DNA of 7,127 nucleotides from Deltaproteobacteria bacterium RIFOXYA12_FULL_61_11 (GCA_001799195.1 MGSU01000227.1:1-7127), one strand, 5' to 3'; positions 1 through 7,127 are shown, counted from the stretch's first letter. Program-made: numbers and translations. The notes: generated by a model not told the origin, from the sequence alone.

Positions 1-906
1 GATCTGCCCTTCGAGGTCTGGCGCACGTTCATCGACCAGACCCTCGAGTTCATCGGCCCGCACCACCTCATCGTCTCGGGCGGCGAGCCTTTGACCTCTC
101 CTTACGTGGTCGACGTGATCCGCCACTGCAGCAAGAATGGTATCTCCACGGCCATGGTCACCAACGGCTGGTTGCTGGAGCGTCCCATGCTCCAGGCCCT
201 GCTCGAGGCCAAGCTCAGCGCCCTGATCGTCTCGCTCGATGTTCCCGGTCCCGCGCACGACGAGGTGCGCAACAAGCCCGGCCTGTACCGCCGCATCCGC
301 GAAGCCCTCGATTTCTTGGCCGGCCGCAAGGGGGGGATGAACCTCAACCTCATGGCGGTCATCGCGGCGCACAACCTCGAGCACCTCGAGAGCTTGGTCC
401 GTTTCGCCCACGAGCACCCAGCGGTCGGCGGAGTACGTTTCCAGTGCTTGGCGCAACCCTTCTTCAGCGAACCCGACCGCTTCTGGTATCGCACCAACCC
501 CTTGTGGCCAAAGGATAGCGCAGCCGTAGACCGGGCCATGGACCGCCTGCTCGCGCTCAAGGACCAGGGCCTGCCCATCGTCAACGAGCGCTACCAGATC
601 GAGTACTTCAAGCACTACTTCCGGGACCCCAACCTGGCCATCCGACAGCGCTGCGTGTTGGGCGAGTTCAAGCTCCAGGTGCGCAGCGACGGCCTCATGT
701 CCCCGTGCATGTATCACGGCGTGATGGGTGACATCCGCACGCAGCACGTCCGCGACATCTGGTACTCCGAACAGGCCAGGAAGCTGCGCCGGGCCATGTT
801 GGAGTGCCCTTTCCGCTGCAACATGCCGCTCAACTGCGACTTCGAGTCCAACATGCGCCAGCAGTACGGCAATCGCCAGTTGCGCATGGACGAGATCCTG
901 GCCTGA
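1..906 (+). CDS. Radical SAM protein with C-terminal five-cysteine (SPASM-like) domain, 5' end missing
   Basis: Partial gene. The frame is open from the first base and the start lies upstream. The SGGEP motif at nt 76-90 is the radical SAM 'GGE' motif that helps bind the amino group of S-adenosylmethionine. The CxxxCxxC cluster motif must lie before the window: aligning W7 here with W61 of the next gene implies about 54 missing residues. A TNGWLL segment and a conserved YFRDPN stretch follow. The C-terminal cysteines, at codons starting 652, 706, 805, 817 and 835, have the spacing C-x17-C-x32-C-x3-C-x5-C, suggesting one auxiliary Fe-S cluster or more (SPASM/twitch type). Family knowledge: such enzymes cleave SAM to a 5'-deoxyadenosyl radical and modify peptides or small molecules in the cytoplasm. 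The substrate is unknown. The gene is paralogous to the next two and ends 6 bp before the second. The in-frame TTG at 85 or 91 is not a credible start, since the radical SAM core runs through it. Confidence 0.93.
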   Translation, partial: DLPFEVWRTFIDQTLEFIGPHHLIVSGGEPLTSPYVVDVIRHCSKNGISTAMVTNGWLLERPMLQALLEAKLSALIVSLDVPGPAHDEVRNKPGLYRRIREALDFLAGRKGGMNLNLMAVIAAHNLEHLESLVRFAHEHPAVGGVRFQCLAQPFFSEPDRFWYRTNPLWPKDSAAVDRAMDRLLALKDQGLPIVNERYQIEYFKHYFRDPNLAIRQRCVLGEFKLQVRSDGLMSPCMYHGVMGDIRTQHVRDIWYSEQARKLRRAMLECPFRCNMPLNCDFESNMRQQYGNRQLRMDEILA

Positions 907-912
907 ACCGCG

Positions 913-1968
913 ATGAACGGCTTGCGTGCCGATTTCGCGAGGCTGCGGGAACGCCTCCACCGCTTCGGTGAGGAACGGGAGGCCGTCCCGCCGCCGTGCT
1001 GCATCGACCTCAAGGTGACCACGGCCTGCATGCTGCGCTGCGCGATGTGCCGTTCTTGGGCCATGCCGCGGCGGCAGCTCCCGCTCGACACCTGGCGTCG
1101 TGCCGTGGACGAACTAGCCTCCTGGAGCGGTGCTGCCAAGATCGTCTTCTCGGGCGGAGAGCCCCTGATGGTCGATGACCTGCCGGACCTGATCCGGCAC
1201 TGCAGCGCCCTGGGTTTCTCGACCGTGCTGCCGAGCAACGGCTGGTTGCTCGATGCAGCCATGATCGACCGGCTTGCCGAGGCCGGGCTCAGTACCCTGC
1301 TCCTGTCGCTGGAAGCGCGCGATCCCCTGCACGACCGCCTGCGCGGCCGGGAGGGGGTGTGGCAGCGGGTCGAGGCTGCCCTCCAGCGTTTGCGCGAAGT
1401 GAGTCCTCCTTACACGGTCAACCTGCAGACCATCATCTTGGCCCAGAACCTCGAACATGTGTGCGGCCTGGTACAGTGGGTGCTCGAGGATCCCCTGCTC
1501 AGTTCGATCAACTTCCAGGCCGTGGCCCCCACCTTCGGAGAGCCTGAGGAGCGGGGTTGGCACCAGCGGAGCGAGCTATGGCCGCGCGACCTCGGGCAGC
1601 TCGACGAGATCCTCCAGCGGCTGGCAGCCCTGCGCCGCGAGGGCGCGCCCATTGTCAACGAGCCCTATCACTTCGCTTTCTACCAGCGGTACTTCCGAGA
1701 CCCCGACCAATTCACGGCGCACCGCTGCGACCTCGGCCGCATCCTGCTCATGGTCGACGACCAGGGCGAGGTCTCGTCCTGCTTCCGATTGGGCAGTATC
1801 GGCAACGTACGCGAGGCCCCGCTCAGGGATCTGTGGCACGGACCGCGGGCCTCCGAGCTGCGCCGGGCCATCCGGAGCTGCGCGGTGAGCTGTAACCTAC
1901 CGGTGAACTGCAACTTCGAGGAGAACGCCCGCCTCGCGTGCCCCGACCTCTTGCAAGGAGGAGCATGA
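913..1968 (+). CDS. Radical SAM protein with C-terminal five-cysteine (SPASM-like) domain, second paralog
   Basis: A complete 351-residue radical SAM enzyme. After an N-terminal helix (about 4-23) and a PPP turn (26-28) comes the [4Fe-4S] motif C39-x3-C43-x2-C46, then the SAM-binding SGGEP motif at 80-84 and SNGWLL further on. The C-terminal part carries C272, C290, C323, C327 and C333, with the same spacing as in both neighbours. It ends in a CNLPVNCNFEEN segment, consistent with an auxiliary Fe-S cluster. Two further cysteines, C29-C30, sit just before the core strand and are absent from the third paralog. The ATG at 913 follows the previous stop by 6 bp with no clear Shine-Dalgarno, so translational coupling is likely. 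The stop overlaps the next start (ATGA at 1965-1968). The reaction and substrate are not recognisable. A peptide, sugar or lipid-precursor substrate are all possible. The fold call is firm; the function is open. Confidence 0.95.
   Translation: MNGLRADFARLRERLHRFGEEREAVPPPCCIDLKVTTACMLRCAMCRSWAMPRRQLPLDTWRRAVDELASWSGAAKIVFSGGEPLMVDDLPDLIRHCSALGFSTVLPSNGWLLDAAMIDRLAEAGLSTLLLSLEARDPLHDRLRGREGVWQRVEAALQRLREVSPPYTVNLQTIILAQNLEHVCGLVQWVLEDPLLSSINFQAVAPTFGEPEERGWHQRSELWPRDLGQLDEILQRLAALRREGAPIVNEPYHFAFYQRYFRDPDQFTAHRCDLGRILLMVDDQGEVSSCFRLGSIGNVREAPLRDLWHGPRASELRRAIRSCAVSCNLPVNCNFEENARLACPDLLQGGA
1955..1961 (+). promoter_or_regulatory. Strong Shine-Dalgarno deciding the start of the third radical SAM gene
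   Basis: AAGGAGG lies 3 nt before the ATG at 1965, a slightly short spacing but the best ribosome binding site in the left block. It sits inside the 3' end of the second radical SAM gene and favours the ATG at 1965 over the upstream GTG at 1938. Confidence 0.7.
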
Positions 1969-3038
1969 GCACGCCTTTTTCCGAACTGCACGCCGGACTG
2001 GACCGGTTGCGGCGTCTCGTCGAACGCGAAGAGTTGCCGCCGCCGGCCATCATTGACGCCCAGCTCACCCTGCGTTGCTTCATGCGCTGCCGGTATTGCC
2101 GCATCTGGACCTTCGAGGGCGAGGAGCTGGGTTTCGAACCGTGGCGCGACCTGGTCACCGAGCTGCGTGCTTGGCTCGGCCCCTTCCAGTTCATCATCTC
2201 GGGCGGGGAACCCTTGCTGGTGCCGTACTTGACCGAGTTGCTGGAGCACTGCCGCGACCTCGGAGTCCAGACCTCCCTGACCACCAACGGACGCTTGCTC
2301 GACGATCCCCTGCTCGAGCGGCTCGGCAGGTCCGGTCTTGGCACCCTGGTCCTCTCGCTCGACGCCTTGTCGCCGACCCACGACCAACTCCGCGACAGCC
2401 CCGGTTTGGCCGGCCACCTGCGTTCCGTGGTCGAGCACTTCGGTACCTCCAGCGAGCGCATCAAGCTCAAGATCCTCAGTGTCATCAGCAGAGCCAATCT
2501 CGGCGAGATAGAAACCCTGCTCGACTGGGCCGAGGGGTGCGAGGAGCTGACCGCGGTCTTGTTCCAGGCCCTGGCCCAACCCTTCTCGACCGAGTTCCGC
2601 CAAGACTGGTACCTCCATAACGACCTCTGGCCCGACGACCTCGAGGCCGTGGACGGACTGCTCGACCGCGTGGTGCGACGCCAAGCCGCCGGCGGCAAGA
2701 TCGAGAACGAACGTTTCCAACTTGAGTTCTACAAGCTCTATTTCCGCGATCCCAACCAGTTCGTACGCCATCGCTGCAACCTCGGACGGGTGCTGCTCAA
2801 GATCAGCAACCAGGGCCAATTCTCGGCCTGTTTCCACATGGGAGTCATGGGCGACCTCGCCCGGGGCTCGGTCCGGGAGCAATGGTATAGTCGTCAAGCC
2901 GACGAGGTGCGGCGGCGGATGCGGCGCTGCGACCTGAGCTGTAACCTGCCGGTGAACTGCAATTTCAAAGAGAATGCCGCCCTGGTCTTCGGTGACCGCT
3001 GGCGTGAGTTCGACCGCGATGCCGTCGAGCAGCCATGA
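1965..3038 (+). CDS. Radical SAM protein with C-terminal five-cysteine (SPASM-like) domain, third paralog
   Basis: A complete 357-residue radical SAM enzyme. I chose the ATG at 1965 because it follows AAGGAGG and overlaps the previous stop as ATGA. An in-frame GTG at 1938 would add nine residues from inside the upstream gene and has no such support. Cluster motif: C38-x3-C42-x2-C45, followed by RIW. The SAM motif SGGEP comes later, then TNGRLL. C271, C289, C322, C326 and C332 repeat the C-x17-C-x32-C-x3-C-x5-C array of the two upstream paralogs, and the last three lie in a CDLSCNLPVNCNF segment. Like the second paralog it begins with an amphipathic helix and a PPP turn before the core. Identity to the others is moderate by eye and highest in the C-terminal cysteine region, so this is an old duplication with likely specialisation. 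The stop overlaps the start of the phosphodiesterase gene (ATGA at 3035-3038). Substrate unknown. Confidence 0.95.
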   Translation: MSTPFSELHAGLDRLRRLVEREELPPPAIIDAQLTLRCFMRCRYCRIWTFEGEELGFEPWRDLVTELRAWLGPFQFIISGGEPLLVPYLTELLEHCRDLGVQTSLTTNGRLLDDPLLERLGRSGLGTLVLSLDALSPTHDQLRDSPGLAGHLRSVVEHFGTSSERIKLKILSVISRANLGEIETLLDWAEGCEELTAVLFQALAQPFSTEFRQDWYLHNDLWPDDLEAVDGLLDRVVRRQAAGGKIENERFQLEFYKLYFRDPNQFVRHRCNLGRVLLKISNQGQFSACFHMGVMGDLARGSVREQWYSRQADEVRRRMRRCDLSCNLPVNCNFKENAALVFGDRWREFDRDAVEQP

Positions 3039-4525
3039 TACGAGGGTTGGTCAGAACCGGTGCCTGCCTGTGCTCTTTCTGGTGCTGGGCAACCGGCGCT
3101 CTTGCCTTGCCGGCCGCCGGTCGGGTGATCGTCGTGGTCGGTATCGACGGGGCCAGCCCCGACGTCATCGAGAGTCTCCTGGCCGAGGGTCGCCTGCCCG
3201 CCTTCCAGCGGTTGAAGACCGAGGGAGCATTCGGACCGCTCCTCTCCGATGTGGCGATGACCCCGGTGAGCTGGACCACGCTGGGCACGGGAAGACGGTA
3301 CGCGAGCCACGGTATCGATCCCTCCTGGGGACCTGTGCGGACCTTCTTCGCCTCTCCCTCAGAGATCAGGGTAGCTCGCCTGTGGGATCACCTGCGCGCA
3401 GGTGGGCTCTCGGTACGGGTACTCAACTGGTTCTTCCTCGATCCCCCCGAGGAACTCACGCCCCACTATCCTTCTCCCAAAGGTGCGACGACGGTCTGGC
3501 CGGTCAGCCCCCTGCCAGGCCTCCTGGCCGCTCGCCGGGAAGATGCCGTCCTCTCGGCCGAGATAGACCTCGACGACGTCCAGCACCGCTATCGATGGTA
3601 CCTCGATCATCGGCGCGAGACGGTCGAACGGTGCTGGCCTGCCGACTCGAGGGAGAGCGCCGGGCGGCTCGCCGAGCGTGTGCTAGAGGATTATGAACGC
3701 GCGGATACCTTGCTCGGTCAGGTCCTCGGCACCTTGGGGCCCGCTGATGTGCTCGTCGTGGTCTCGGATCATGGTTTTTTCCCCAAGAGCAGGCTCGAGA
3801 AGAACCTCTCCGGTGGGCCCGGACTGTGCCGTTTGCTGTCCTGCGAGCCTCCGGCAAGCGGATCCGGGGACAGACAACGCGGCCATTGGCAGGGGCGGTC
3901 TCTTCTCCTGACCAGCGAGGAACGCAGACGGGAAGTTCCGTTCCCCGTCACCGCGCCGGACTGCGGCCAGGTGAAGCAACTGCTCATCTTCGATGCGGTC
4001 GTGGTGACCCCCGAGCTCCCGGGGCGAACGCTGCCAGAGGAGCTGGGAAAAGACCTCGCTGCCATCGCGCACGAGGGGTTACCCGTGTTCGCGATCGAAG
4101 TGGAAGCTCGGGATCGCCTCGTGCTCGTGCCATCTCACGCCATGCTCCGGCGTGCTGAGTACGCGCTCGAAACCTTCCACGTTCCCCCGTGGTTCTCGGT
4201 ATATGTCGAGACCGGCGATCATTATGGAACGACGCCGGGGATCGTCGCCCTGTGGGGCAGGGGCATTCGCCCCGGGAGCGAGGTGGGTTTCGCCACGCTG
4301 ATCGATATTGCGCCGACGGTATTGTGCTTGGCCGGGGTTCCGGTTGCCCGGGAACTCGAAGGTCGGGTGTTGTCAGCGCCGCTCCTCGAACGGTGTCCCT
4401 ACGGTGCCGGGAGTCCCGGAACCTCGTCGAACGCTACGTCCGAAAAGGGACTAACGGGAAAAACGATGCCGAACCCGACCCATGAAGAGGTGGAAAAGCT
4501 GCGAAGTCTCGGTTACCTGCGCTGA
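3035..4525 (+). CDS. Secreted type I phosphodiesterase / AlkP-superfamily hydrolase
   Basis: A 496-residue protein of the type I phosphodiesterase/nucleotide pyrophosphatase family (alkaline phosphatase superfamily), which hydrolyses phosphate esters with two bound metal ions, usually zinc. The N-terminus has basic residues R3 and R7, a hydrophobic stretch and an ALA/LPA cleavage region near 24-28, so export to the periplasm is likely. Active-site residues by family alignment: D38 in GIDGA; nucleophile T76 in MTPVSW, placed by the downstream TG at 85-86 and HGI at 92-94; D180 and H184 in DDVQH; D245-H246 in VVSDHGF; and H396 in GDHYG. The C-terminal DIAPTVLCLAGVP stretch and the ending SLGYLR are typical of bacterial members of the superfamily. 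Length is normal and no catalytic residue appears lost. Its start overlaps the stop of the third radical SAM gene, so it is the fourth gene of that operon and may act on the same or a related compound. Substrate class (phosphodiester or phosphomonoester) cannot be read from the sequence. Confidence 0.93.
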   Translation: MIRGLVRTGACLCSFWCWATGALALPAAGRVIVVVGIDGASPDVIESLLAEGRLPAFQRLKTEGAFGPLLSDVAMTPVSWTTLGTGRRYASHGIDPSWGPVRTFFASPSEIRVARLWDHLRAGGLSVRVLNWFFLDPPEELTPHYPSPKGATTVWPVSPLPGLLAARREDAVLSAEIDLDDVQHRYRWYLDHRRETVERCWPADSRESAGRLAERVLEDYERADTLLGQVLGTLGPADVLVVVSDHGFFPKSRLEKNLSGGPGLCRLLSCEPPASGSGDRQRGHWQGRSLLLTSEERRREVPFPVTAPDCGQVKQLLIFDAVVVTPELPGRTLPEELGKDLAAIAHEGLPVFAIEVEARDRLVLVPSHAMLRRAEYALETFHVPPWFSVYVETGDHYGTTPGIVALWGRGIRPGSEVGFATLIDIAPTVLCLAGVPVARELEGRVLSAPLLERCPYGAGSPGTSSNATSEKGLTGKTMPNPTHEEVEKLRSLGYLR

Positions 4526-4533
4526 ATTCGGGG

Positions 4534-4559
4534 AGGAACCGCGGGCCCTCAGGGTTCTT
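4534..4559. terminator. Weak hairpin at the convergent gene junction
   Basis: AGGAACC (4534-4540) can pair with GGTTCTT (4553-4559) across a 12-nt loop that contains the palindrome GGGCCC. The stem is 7 bp including one G-U pair. There is no T-tract on either side. It lies between two convergent genes only 23 bp apart, so a bidirectional terminator is plausible but poorly supported. Confidence 0.22.
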
Positions 4560-4884
4560 CGTAGACGATGAAGCCCTCGGCGCGTTGCGCTTTGCCTTCT
4601 CTGACCCGGTAATAGAGTTCCTTGCATTTCACGGTGGGCAGGTAACCGCAATGTTCCTGACCGAGGTGTTCTCCGGCCAGACGCTCGGCCGTTACCAAGC
4701 ATTGGGCGATGGTCTCGACGTCGCCCTTAATGGGCACACCGCCGAATTCTTTCTTGAGCCCCTTGACCACGATGCCGTCGATGCGTCCGGCGATCACGAT
4801 CTCGCAGGTCATGGCCTGGGCCGACCAGGATCCCAGGAGGGCGGTCAGCAAGACTACTCCAAGGAGAGGACGCGGGGAGAACAT
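4549..4884 (-). CDS. Small secreted four-cysteine protein of unknown function
   Basis: A 111-residue protein that I do not recognise. Residues 1-24 form a clear signal peptide: R5, a hydrophobic core LLGVVLLTALLG, and an AQA cleavage site before M25. The mature protein of about 87 residues has four cysteines (C27, C62, C79, C87), an even number that would allow two disulfides in the periplasm. There is no lipobox, no haem CxxCH motif and no further membrane segment. The start is supported by AGAGGT at 4890-4895, 5 nt upstream on this strand. The gene lies downstream of the adenylate cyclase on the same strand but is separated by 185 bp with a possible promoter of its own. It faces the phosphodiesterase gene tail to tail. 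The signal peptide, ribosome binding site and lack of any better opposite-strand gene make it a real gene; no function can be given. Confidence 0.8.
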   Translation of the reverse strand: MFSPRPLLGVVLLTALLGSWSAQAMTCEIVIAGRIDGIVVKGLKKEFGGVPIKGDVETIAQCLVTAERLAGEHLGQEHCGYLPTVKCKELYYRVREGKAQRAEGFIVYEEP

Positions 4885-5069: not shown

Positions 5070-7127
5070 TCACTTCTCCTGCGCTCTGAAGACTCCGTCC
5101 CAGCTCGGGTCGGGGGGAGCGACCAGGAACACGGTGCAGCGTTTCAGGTAGACCTTGCTGGCCTCGTCGTCGGGTTTGAGGCGCAGGCATTCTTTGAAGT
5201 GACCGAGCGCAGATGGGAAGTTGCGCCGGTCCTTCTGGTAGCAGTCGACTCCGGCCGAGAAATGCTCGGCCAGCTCCCGCTGCAACGGGGTGGCGCTATC
5301 CCGAAAAGCGAGGAGTTCGAATACCGGGATCGGTACGTCCTTGCCCTTGACAGCGACCAGGTCGAGAGGACGATAGAGGAAGTCCTCTCCTGCCTTGGTT
5401 CTCGTCGTCCCGCTGACCGCGATCCTGGTGCCGAAGACCTTGTTGAAGCCCTCCAGCCGGGAGGCGAGGTTCACCGCGTCGCCGATGGCCGTGTAATTGA
5501 ATTTCTTGGAGGTCGAAAGATCGGAGCCGATGTTGCCGACCACGGCCGGACCGCTGTGCAGGCCGATGCGGGTGATCAACTGGGGCGAAACCCCGAAGGT
5601 TTGCAGGGTCTCGTACCGGGTGGCCTCGAGCAGGGCATTGATCTCGAGGGCGGCCCGACAGGCTAAGGCCGCGTGGCCGGGGAGGGCGATCGGAGCGCCG
5701 AAGAGAGCCATGATCGCGTCGCCGATGTACTTGTCCACGTATCCGCCGTGGGTCATGATGATCTGGGTCGGTCCCGAGAGATAGGCATTCAAGACCTTGA
5801 TCAGCTCGCCGGCCGGCAGTTTCTCGGACAAGGTGGTGAAGCCCTGGATGTCCGAGAAGAAGATGGTCATTTCCTTGGTTTCCCCACCAATCTTGAGGTT
5901 GTCGGGGTTGGCGATGAGGCTGTCGATGATGCTCGGGTCGAGGTAGTGGTTGAACATCTTCTTGATATTCTCCTTGGTCGATTTCTCGACCAGGTAACGA
6001 TAGCTGAGCGGCAGGAAGAAGCTGCCGGTCAGGCCGAGCAGGATCGGGGTCGTGACCAGGTAGGTGTGTTCGAGGGCGAAGAGGTAGTACGCCCAACCGA
6101 GTACCGCCAGACCGGTGCTGAGGTAGACGAGTGAGGAGGTCAACAGGGAGCCGCGCAGGAAGACTACCCCGAACAGGAACAGCGACAACACCACGGTGAG
6201 GGTCAGACTCCAGGAAGCTCGCAGGGGGCGGAGGGCCTGTCCTCCGAGCAGGTTGAGTATGGCCGTGGCGTGGACCTCCAAGCCGGGTTCGGCGGTCTTG
6301 CCGGAAGAGAGAGGGGTGGTCTTGAAATCGTAGAGTTGGGGTGAGGTGCCACCGATGATGACGATGCGGTCGCGGAAGGCATCGTGACCGAGGATGGTGG
6401 TTTCTCGTCCTTCCGCCTCGGCGAGGCCGGCCTCCAGGACGTGGGAAAAACTGTAAAAAGCGAAGGGGGAAGGCTCTCCGGCGACCTGGGCGTTGTAGCC
6501 TCGGCCGTACCAGTTCAGCAGCATCTCGCCCCGGTCGTTGAGATGGACGTCGTAGGCCTTCGAGAGCAATCGCCCGTCTCGCAGCAAGAGTTTCCGGCTG
6601 TCGGTGACCAGGGTGGCGGCGGCAAGCGCGAGTGAGGGGACGACCTCGGTTCCCCGACGGACGAAGAGTTGATAGCGGCGGACCTTGCCGTCGACATCGA
6701 GGGAAATGTTGGTAAAGCCGAGCCCGGCCGTGGCCTCGACGAAGATGGGGATCGGCGGCATAGGGGTCCAGGAGGAACGGTTCTCAGCGCTCTTGCCTCC
6801 CTCGAGCAGCAGCGCTCCCAGTTTGTCCGGCAGGAGGGGTTGGGGTTCGAGCTCGGTCGGGGGTTGCTCTCCGTGCTCGTCGAGACGCATCGCCAGAATG
6901 GTGCGTTGGGAGGAAGAGAGCGCCGCGGCCAGGGCTTGATCGCCCTCTCCACCGTCCTCGACGAAGGGGTTGGAGAACTCGATATCGAAGACGATGGCTC
7001 GCGCCCCCGCTTTGGTCAAGAAGTCGATCACGGGCTGGTAGAAGATGCGGTTGAAGGGCCAGGGATCGTCCTTGTACTCCTCGATGTAGCGCAGCGAATT
7101 CTCGTCGATGGCGACCACGGCGATCTG
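5070..7127 (-). CDS. CHASE2-domain membrane adenylate cyclase, class IIIb, 5' end missing
   Basis: Partial gene. The frame is open to the right edge and the start lies beyond it. Numbering takes the codon at 7118-7116 as residue 1. The N-terminal part is a CHASE2 extracytoplasmic sensor: VVAIDENSL at the window edge, later FDIEF, and GLEVHA near its end. Three membrane segments follow at about 303-321, 326-349 and 353-371. The catalytic domain has metal-binding D423 (FSDIQGFT) and D467 (GDAIMALFG), and purine-binding K463 and T543 (NYTAIGD). N550 and R554 (VNLASR) are the transition-state residues. The K/T pair marks a class IIIb adenylate cyclase rather than a guanylate cyclase; it makes cAMP from ATP on the cytoplasmic side. 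The tail is TPR-like (helices and PDDEASKVYLKRC) and ends in the PP..WDGV motif common in this family. All catalytic residues are intact. The signal sensed by CHASE2 is unknown. A 185-bp gap separates it from the small secreted protein gene, so co-transcription is possible but uncertain. Confidence 0.95.
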   Translation of the reverse strand, partial: QIAVVAIDENSLRYIEEYKDDPWPFNRIFYQPVIDFLTKAGARAIVFDIEFSNPFVEDGGEGDQALAAALSSSQRTILAMRLDEHGEQPPTELEPQPLLPDKLGALLLEGGKSAENRSSWTPMPPIPIFVEATAGLGFTNISLDVDGKVRRYQLFVRRGTEVVPSLALAAATLVTDSRKLLLRDGRLLSKAYDVHLNDRGEMLLNWYGRGYNAQVAGEPSPFAFYSFSHVLEAGLAEAEGRETTILGHDAFRDRIVIIGGTSPQLYDFKTTPLSSGKTAEPGLEVHATAILNLLGGQALRPLRASWSLTLTVVLSLFLFGVVFLRGSLLTSSLVYLSTGLAVLGWAYYLFALEHTYLVTTPILLGLTGSFFLPLSYRYLVEKSTKENIKKMFNHYLDPSIIDSLIANPDNLKIGGETKEMTIFFSDIQGFTTLSEKLPAGELIKVLNAYLSGPTQIIMTHGGYVDKYIGDAIMALFGAPIALPGHAALACRAALEINALLEATRYETLQTFGVSPQLITRIGLHSGPAVVGNIGSDLSTSKKFNYTAIGDAVNLASRLEGFNKVFGTRIAVSGTTRTKAGEDFLYRPLDLVAVKGKDVPIPVFELLAFRDSATPLQRELAEHFSAGVDCYQKDRRNFPSALGHFKECLRLKPDDEASKVYLKRCTVFLVAPPDPSWDGVFRAQEK

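Follow-up and report, generated by a model that had tools for sequence, protein, structure and literature searches.

The genome of Deltaproteobacteria bacterium RIFOXYA12_FULL_61_11 encodes a sharply bounded, unnamed and otherwise rare radical SAM subfamily that is uncharacterised and has 16 members in this genome. Three of the members are encoded head to tail, together with an AlkP-superfamily phosphodiesterase that is predicted to be exported. The radical SAM and AlkP superfamilies are already known; what appears to be new is the subfamily, its expansion and the operon. In the literature that we searched, limited in scope, we found no description of the family, of its 16-fold expansion or of the operon of three radical SAM genes and one AlkP gene.

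Gene content of the contig

The window, meaning the whole stretch of DNA analysed, is the entire contig C227 (7,127 nt) of a genome bin of 342 contigs (4.64 Mb, 87% complete). The comparison set included one genome of the same class (n = 1) and none closer. Four open reading frames lie on the + strand, followed by two convergent genes:

1..906, + strand: radical SAM paralog a, 301 aa readable (Pfam Radical_SAM 5e-12, SPASM 8e-9)
913..1968, + strand: radical SAM paralog b, 351 aa, core motif CMLRCAMC, five-cysteine C-terminal domain (Radical_SAM 1.5e-22, SPASM 4e-7)
1955..1961, + strand: ribosome-binding site AAGGAGG of paralog c, rated good (read from the sequence)
1965..3038, + strand: radical SAM paralog c, 357 aa, core motif CFMRCRYC (Pfam Radical_SAM 3e-15)
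3035..4525, + strand: AlkP-superfamily type I phosphodiesterase, 496 aa, predicted N-terminal signal peptide (Pfam Phosphodiest 1.4e-14)
4549..4884, - strand: convergent small protein, 111 aa, several cysteines (open reading frame; predicted export)
5070..7127, - strand: convergent gene for a CHASE2-adenylate cyclase, truncated at its 5' end where the contig stops (Pfam CHASE2 1.8e-45, Guanylate_cyc 7.5e-21)

Paralogs a and b are separated by 6 nt (907-912), and 4-nt ATGA overlaps join b to c (1965-1968) and c to the AlkP gene (3035-3038). The open reading frames and Pfam matches bear out the gene families, the gap and both overlaps as the preliminary description had read them. The contig begins within paralog a, which therefore has an open 5' end and has lost the N-terminal part with the CX3CX2C motif; since the window is the whole contig, genes upstream of a are unreadable. 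The 111-aa protein, without a Pfam match or a clear paralog in its own genome, probably does not belong to the operon, and the cyclase gene is no member of it. An Rfam search of the window gave no match, and promoter and terminator scans of the window gave matches no more than expected by chance.

The three radical SAM enzymes scored 46.7, 81 and 57 bits against PF04055 (Radical_SAM; gathering score 29.5), and a and b scored 36 and 31 bits against PF13186 (SPASM; gathering score 21.5), with c below. Paralog c shares 40% identity with both b (E 1.9e-86) and a (E 6e-77). Among the NCBIfam radical SAM equivalogs (PqqE, BlsE, AhbD, NirJ, GeoRSP and others) none fits, the best match of each of the three enzymes reaching 59-81 bits against cut-offs of 381-500, which agrees with the earlier statement that the set matches no named pathway.

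The AlkP protein resembles the type I phosphodiesterases/nucleotide pyrophosphatases (PF01663) in its Pfam match, Thr nucleophile, metal-ligand motifs and predicted export, the signal peptide being called from the sequence and a hydropathy heuristic only. Its active-site motifs are GIDGA (D38), T76, SDHGF (D245, H246) and GDHYG (H396), with Thr at the nucleophile position (MTPVSW), where homologues carry Ser or Thr. The D-x3-H ligand pair is DDVQH (180-184) by motif and D191/E195, with Glu for His, by alignment. Judged from these residues, the active site looks intact, with one ligand pair unsure. The protein had no NCBIfam family and no PDB sequence match, and a single-sequence structure model (pLDDT 38) was left unused. 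The AlkP family was found in 92 of 386 genomes. Up to six tandem genes of this family were observed per locus in L154, L155, L156 and L157.

A sixteen-member family in the source genome

Using paralog c as query, we found 15 relatives in its own genome (30-46% identity), giving a family of 16 members spread over 12 contigs. With a profile of the 16, the members scored 365-451 bits, against 124 bits for the best of the genome's other radical SAM proteins. At E 1e-10 the radical SAM profile has 57 matches in this genome, a large number for 4.6 Mb, and 4 in the genome of the same class.

The CX3CX2C motif is kept in all 15 members with a readable N-terminus (b, c and 13 others). All 16 have five C-terminal cysteines, arranged as a C..G....C (C-Gx4C) pair and then Cx3Cx5C, and all are without the CX3C and without a conserved distal cysteine. 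The SPASM motif has seven cysteines, CX9-15GX4C-gap-CX2CX5CX3C-gap-C (PMC6231123), and is present in none of the 16 members. With five cysteines against seven, the C-terminal domain appears reduced and twitch-like, and the cysteine pattern is compatible with a single twitch-like auxiliary cluster, which the family enzymes are predicted to carry.

In the tree, a, b and c fall inside a supported seven-member clade with the copies on contigs C280, C335, C11 and C333. A clade of the window genes only was neither shown nor rejected (p-AU 0.22), and the nearest sequence to c by identity is the C280 copy (46%) on another contig, against 40% for its operon neighbours. Three paralogs do run head to tail, as had been described; their origin by a simple recent tandem duplication is not supported by these results, nor rejected.

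A second tandem is present on C341 (L046 1398-4021, - strand), where two family members adjoin in overlapping frames. The C280 copy is part of an open frame of 1107 aa (L041 2-3325) composed of a radical SAM from outside the family, a weak match to Wzt_C (E 0.0015, under the Pfam threshold) and the family radical SAM. Most other copies have neighbours of unrelated function, for example RibD, the tRNA synthetases for glutamate and cysteine or NADH dehydrogenase genes, and exported proteins or lipoproteins adjoin those on C251, C333 and C231. No AlkP gene lies beside the other family copies within the DNA read. What looked like internal stops in the copies on C231 and C251 proved to be C-terminal ones. 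The copies on C11 and C333 extend at the C-terminus in a way that seemed Wzt-like by eye, but Pfam did not bear this out.

Relatives and gene partners in other genomes

A profile search of 386 genomes identified 22 others with a match at E 1e-40 or better (best 300 bits). Scans for short peptide patterns, two over 84,980 genome contigs and one over viral contigs, returned no relatives; because the profile search did find relatives, we regard these scans as insensitive. Strong matches occur in four of the seven genomes of the phylum of G315, with up to four copies each. At the readable family loci of this phylum there is no AlkP gene, and the neighbours are mostly lipoprotein or unrelated genes; exported proteins or lipoproteins adjoin the family gene in L090, L178 and L182. 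The lipoprotein gene in L182 overlaps the family gene by 4 nt, and long Asp-rich (DDDDD/DDN) exported proteins are encoded near family genes in L182, L183 and L185.

In a second phylum, all three genomes (G149, G287 and G386) have a 4-nt overlap between the family gene and an AlkP gene (L092 8724-8727, L094 9715-9718 and L100 8167-8170). The order there is AlkP and then the family radical SAM, with a different radical SAM upstream; L094 and L100 continue with a GT2 gene, L092 and L100 with a SIS+HAD fusion, which combines the domains known from phosphoheptose isomerase and phosphatase. The operon is like that of the window in the 4-nt overlap and in having a second radical SAM gene, but it differs in combining one family member with a different radical SAM, in placing AlkP first and in its attached sugar genes. 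Its upstream region encodes a conserved protein, 614-680 aa long and 51% identical between loci, for which Pfam gave no match (L092 4025-5869, L094 12471-14327, L100 3371-5413); the 614-aa protein of L092 has no homologue in the window's own genome. A possible further lineage with this pairing is represented by L093, where the family radical SAM is followed by GT2 and B12-radical SAM genes and, in third place downstream, by an AlkP fragment that is truncated by masked sequence.

As a control, 20 loci were picked by AlkP similarity regardless of radical SAM genes, and none has a family radical SAM within ~6 kb. Set against the overlaps in three genomes, this makes the pairing recurrent but uncommon. 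The preliminary description had proposed a neighbourhood search for conservation of the three-plus-one arrangement: among the genomes searched, the full set was seen only in the source genome, and elsewhere we found only AlkP with one family radical SAM.

Pairing with a second radical SAM enzyme, as fusions or tandems, extends further and recurs across phyla. In G379 (L091 6274-8976), both radical SAM types of the C280 frame are fused in the opposite order, and the non-family halves of the two fusions are 37% identical across 384 aa. That both orders of fusion exist gives good reason to think that the family works with another radical SAM enzyme, but says nothing on the substrate. Wider relatives adjoin a second radical SAM in L101, L102, L103, L109, L110, L113 and L115, several of these loci also carrying glycosyltransferases. 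L110 is a GT4 locus with an NAD-dependent epimerase and a DegT aminotransferase, and other wider relatives adjoin PMT_2-like and GT genes. A locus of a GT4-like gene followed by two radical SAM genes recurs in distant genomes (L103, L109, L110 and L115) and looks like an uncharacterised glycan pathway.

Possible role of the operon

We tentatively propose, at somewhat less than even confidence, that in the cytoplasm the radical SAM enzymes alter a sugar or lipid precursor of the envelope, with an exported phosphodiester step added. The operon would then make or tailor an envelope glycan or lipid headgroup. Each radical SAM enzyme is predicted to hold one SAM-cleaving [4Fe-4S] cluster besides the twitch-like auxiliary cluster. 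In the cytoplasm, the three would act in successive or alternative steps on a sugar- or lipid-linked precursor, by radical oxidation, epimerisation or similar C-H chemistry, after the fashion of BtrN or BlsE, and the exported AlkP-type enzyme might then cleave or transfer a phosphodiester on the far side of the membrane. What we infer here is the number of clusters, the type of reaction, the substrate, the sequence of steps and one common product for the four proteins. The operon genes run in one direction and overlap, and the overlap of AlkP with a family gene in L092, L094 and L100 also speaks for the proposal, as do the two radical SAM fusions and the five-cysteine C-terminus. Its glycan side draws on the genes found near the relatives, on the Wzt_C-like domain and on a likeness to the sugar chemistry of BtrN and BlsE. 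Counting against it, the AlkP family is common and usually has no family radical SAM near. The mostly unrelated surroundings of the other copies in the source genome, the lack of AlkP at the readable loci of the phylum of G315 and the moderate quality of the model behind the fold match weigh on the same side. The window, its upstream side unreadable, contains no glycosyltransferase, lipid or sugar gene.

BtrN is a twitch dehydrogenase (PMC9012708). It and other twitch dehydrogenases share with the family a radical SAM core followed by a C-terminal domain poorer in cysteines than SPASM. The substrate oxidised by BtrN is a sugar-like aminocyclitol; BtrN is only a weak fold match to paralog c, and the family differs in its five C-terminal cysteines ending in Cx3Cx5C. 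A Foldseek search with a model of c (moderate, pLDDT 64) matched PqqE, BlsE, viperin, SuiB and SkfB. The SPASM peptide maturase PqqE is the best match in both PDB sequence (1.8e-10) and fold (1.7e-6), although the family misses the seven-cysteine motif and c scores 68 bits against the 381-bit equivalog cut-off. BlsE, a cytosylglucuronate decarboxylase with a sugar nucleotide as substrate, is second-best in sequence (4e-9) and in fold, with 22% identity in the fold alignment and 38-50 bits against a 400-bit cut-off.

The presence of the peptide enzymes PqqE, SuiB and SkfB among the closest characterised structures fits a different role, in which a peptide or exported protein is the substrate of the radical SAM enzymes, in a RiPP-like or maturation system, and AlkP is a bystander or the modified protein itself. 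The exported or lipoprotein neighbours at C251, C333, C231, L090, L178 and L182 may be read in the same way, but such neighbours are common by chance. The first core cysteine of c is C38, preceded by ~37 residues, and b is similar, so that neither has room ahead of CX3CX2C for a fused N-terminal RRE of roughly at least 80 aa. The seven-cysteine SPASM pattern is missing and no precursor is visible in the window; the lack of a fused recognition domain and of a visible precursor makes a RiPP-like role less likely, and we hold the peptide or protein role as a whole to be unlikely. Maturation of a protein partner is also the function of anSME, a SPASM radical SAM enzyme that acts on sulfatases, which belong to the AlkP superfamily, and the recurrent AlkP-radical SAM overlap would suit an analogous formation of formylglycine at the AlkP nucleophile. 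The window AlkP, however, has Thr as its nucleophile and no C/S-x-P-x-R sulfatase motif, whose absence largely refutes this idea, and the 25 best NCBIfam matches do not include anSME; we consider this kind of maturation very improbable.

The preliminary description had further supposed that the four genes share one pathway. The AlkP-radical SAM overlaps in three genomes and the recurrent radical SAM fusions and tandems favour this, while the restriction of the full set to one genome, the lack of AlkP beside the other paralogs in that genome and the 20 AlkP-chosen loci speak against it. The last of these, and the uniqueness of the set in what was searched, would be expected if the genes were merely co-transcribed, with AlkP a scavenging phosphodiesterase unrelated to the radical SAM products and brought in by gene shuffling. 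Such a chance union is a serious alternative that we nevertheless think doubtful, as a second phylum has independent 4-nt overlaps of AlkP and family genes, arranged the other way round, in three genomes, with L093 as a possible third lineage.

In the most far-reaching reading, the 16 paralogs might constitute a lineage-specific toolkit of five-cysteine enzymes whose pairs and triplets act on a new class of envelope molecules, each copy making a different modification and exported AlkP enzymes finishing some of them; we hold this reading to be a long shot. The 16 copies, the cysteine signature, the pairing or fusion with other radical SAM enzymes and the AlkP partner provide concrete targets in the search for a new radical reaction, which probably belongs to the sugar or lipid chemistry of the envelope. 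They also point to a lineage with a heavy investment in radical SAM enzymes beyond the named pathways.
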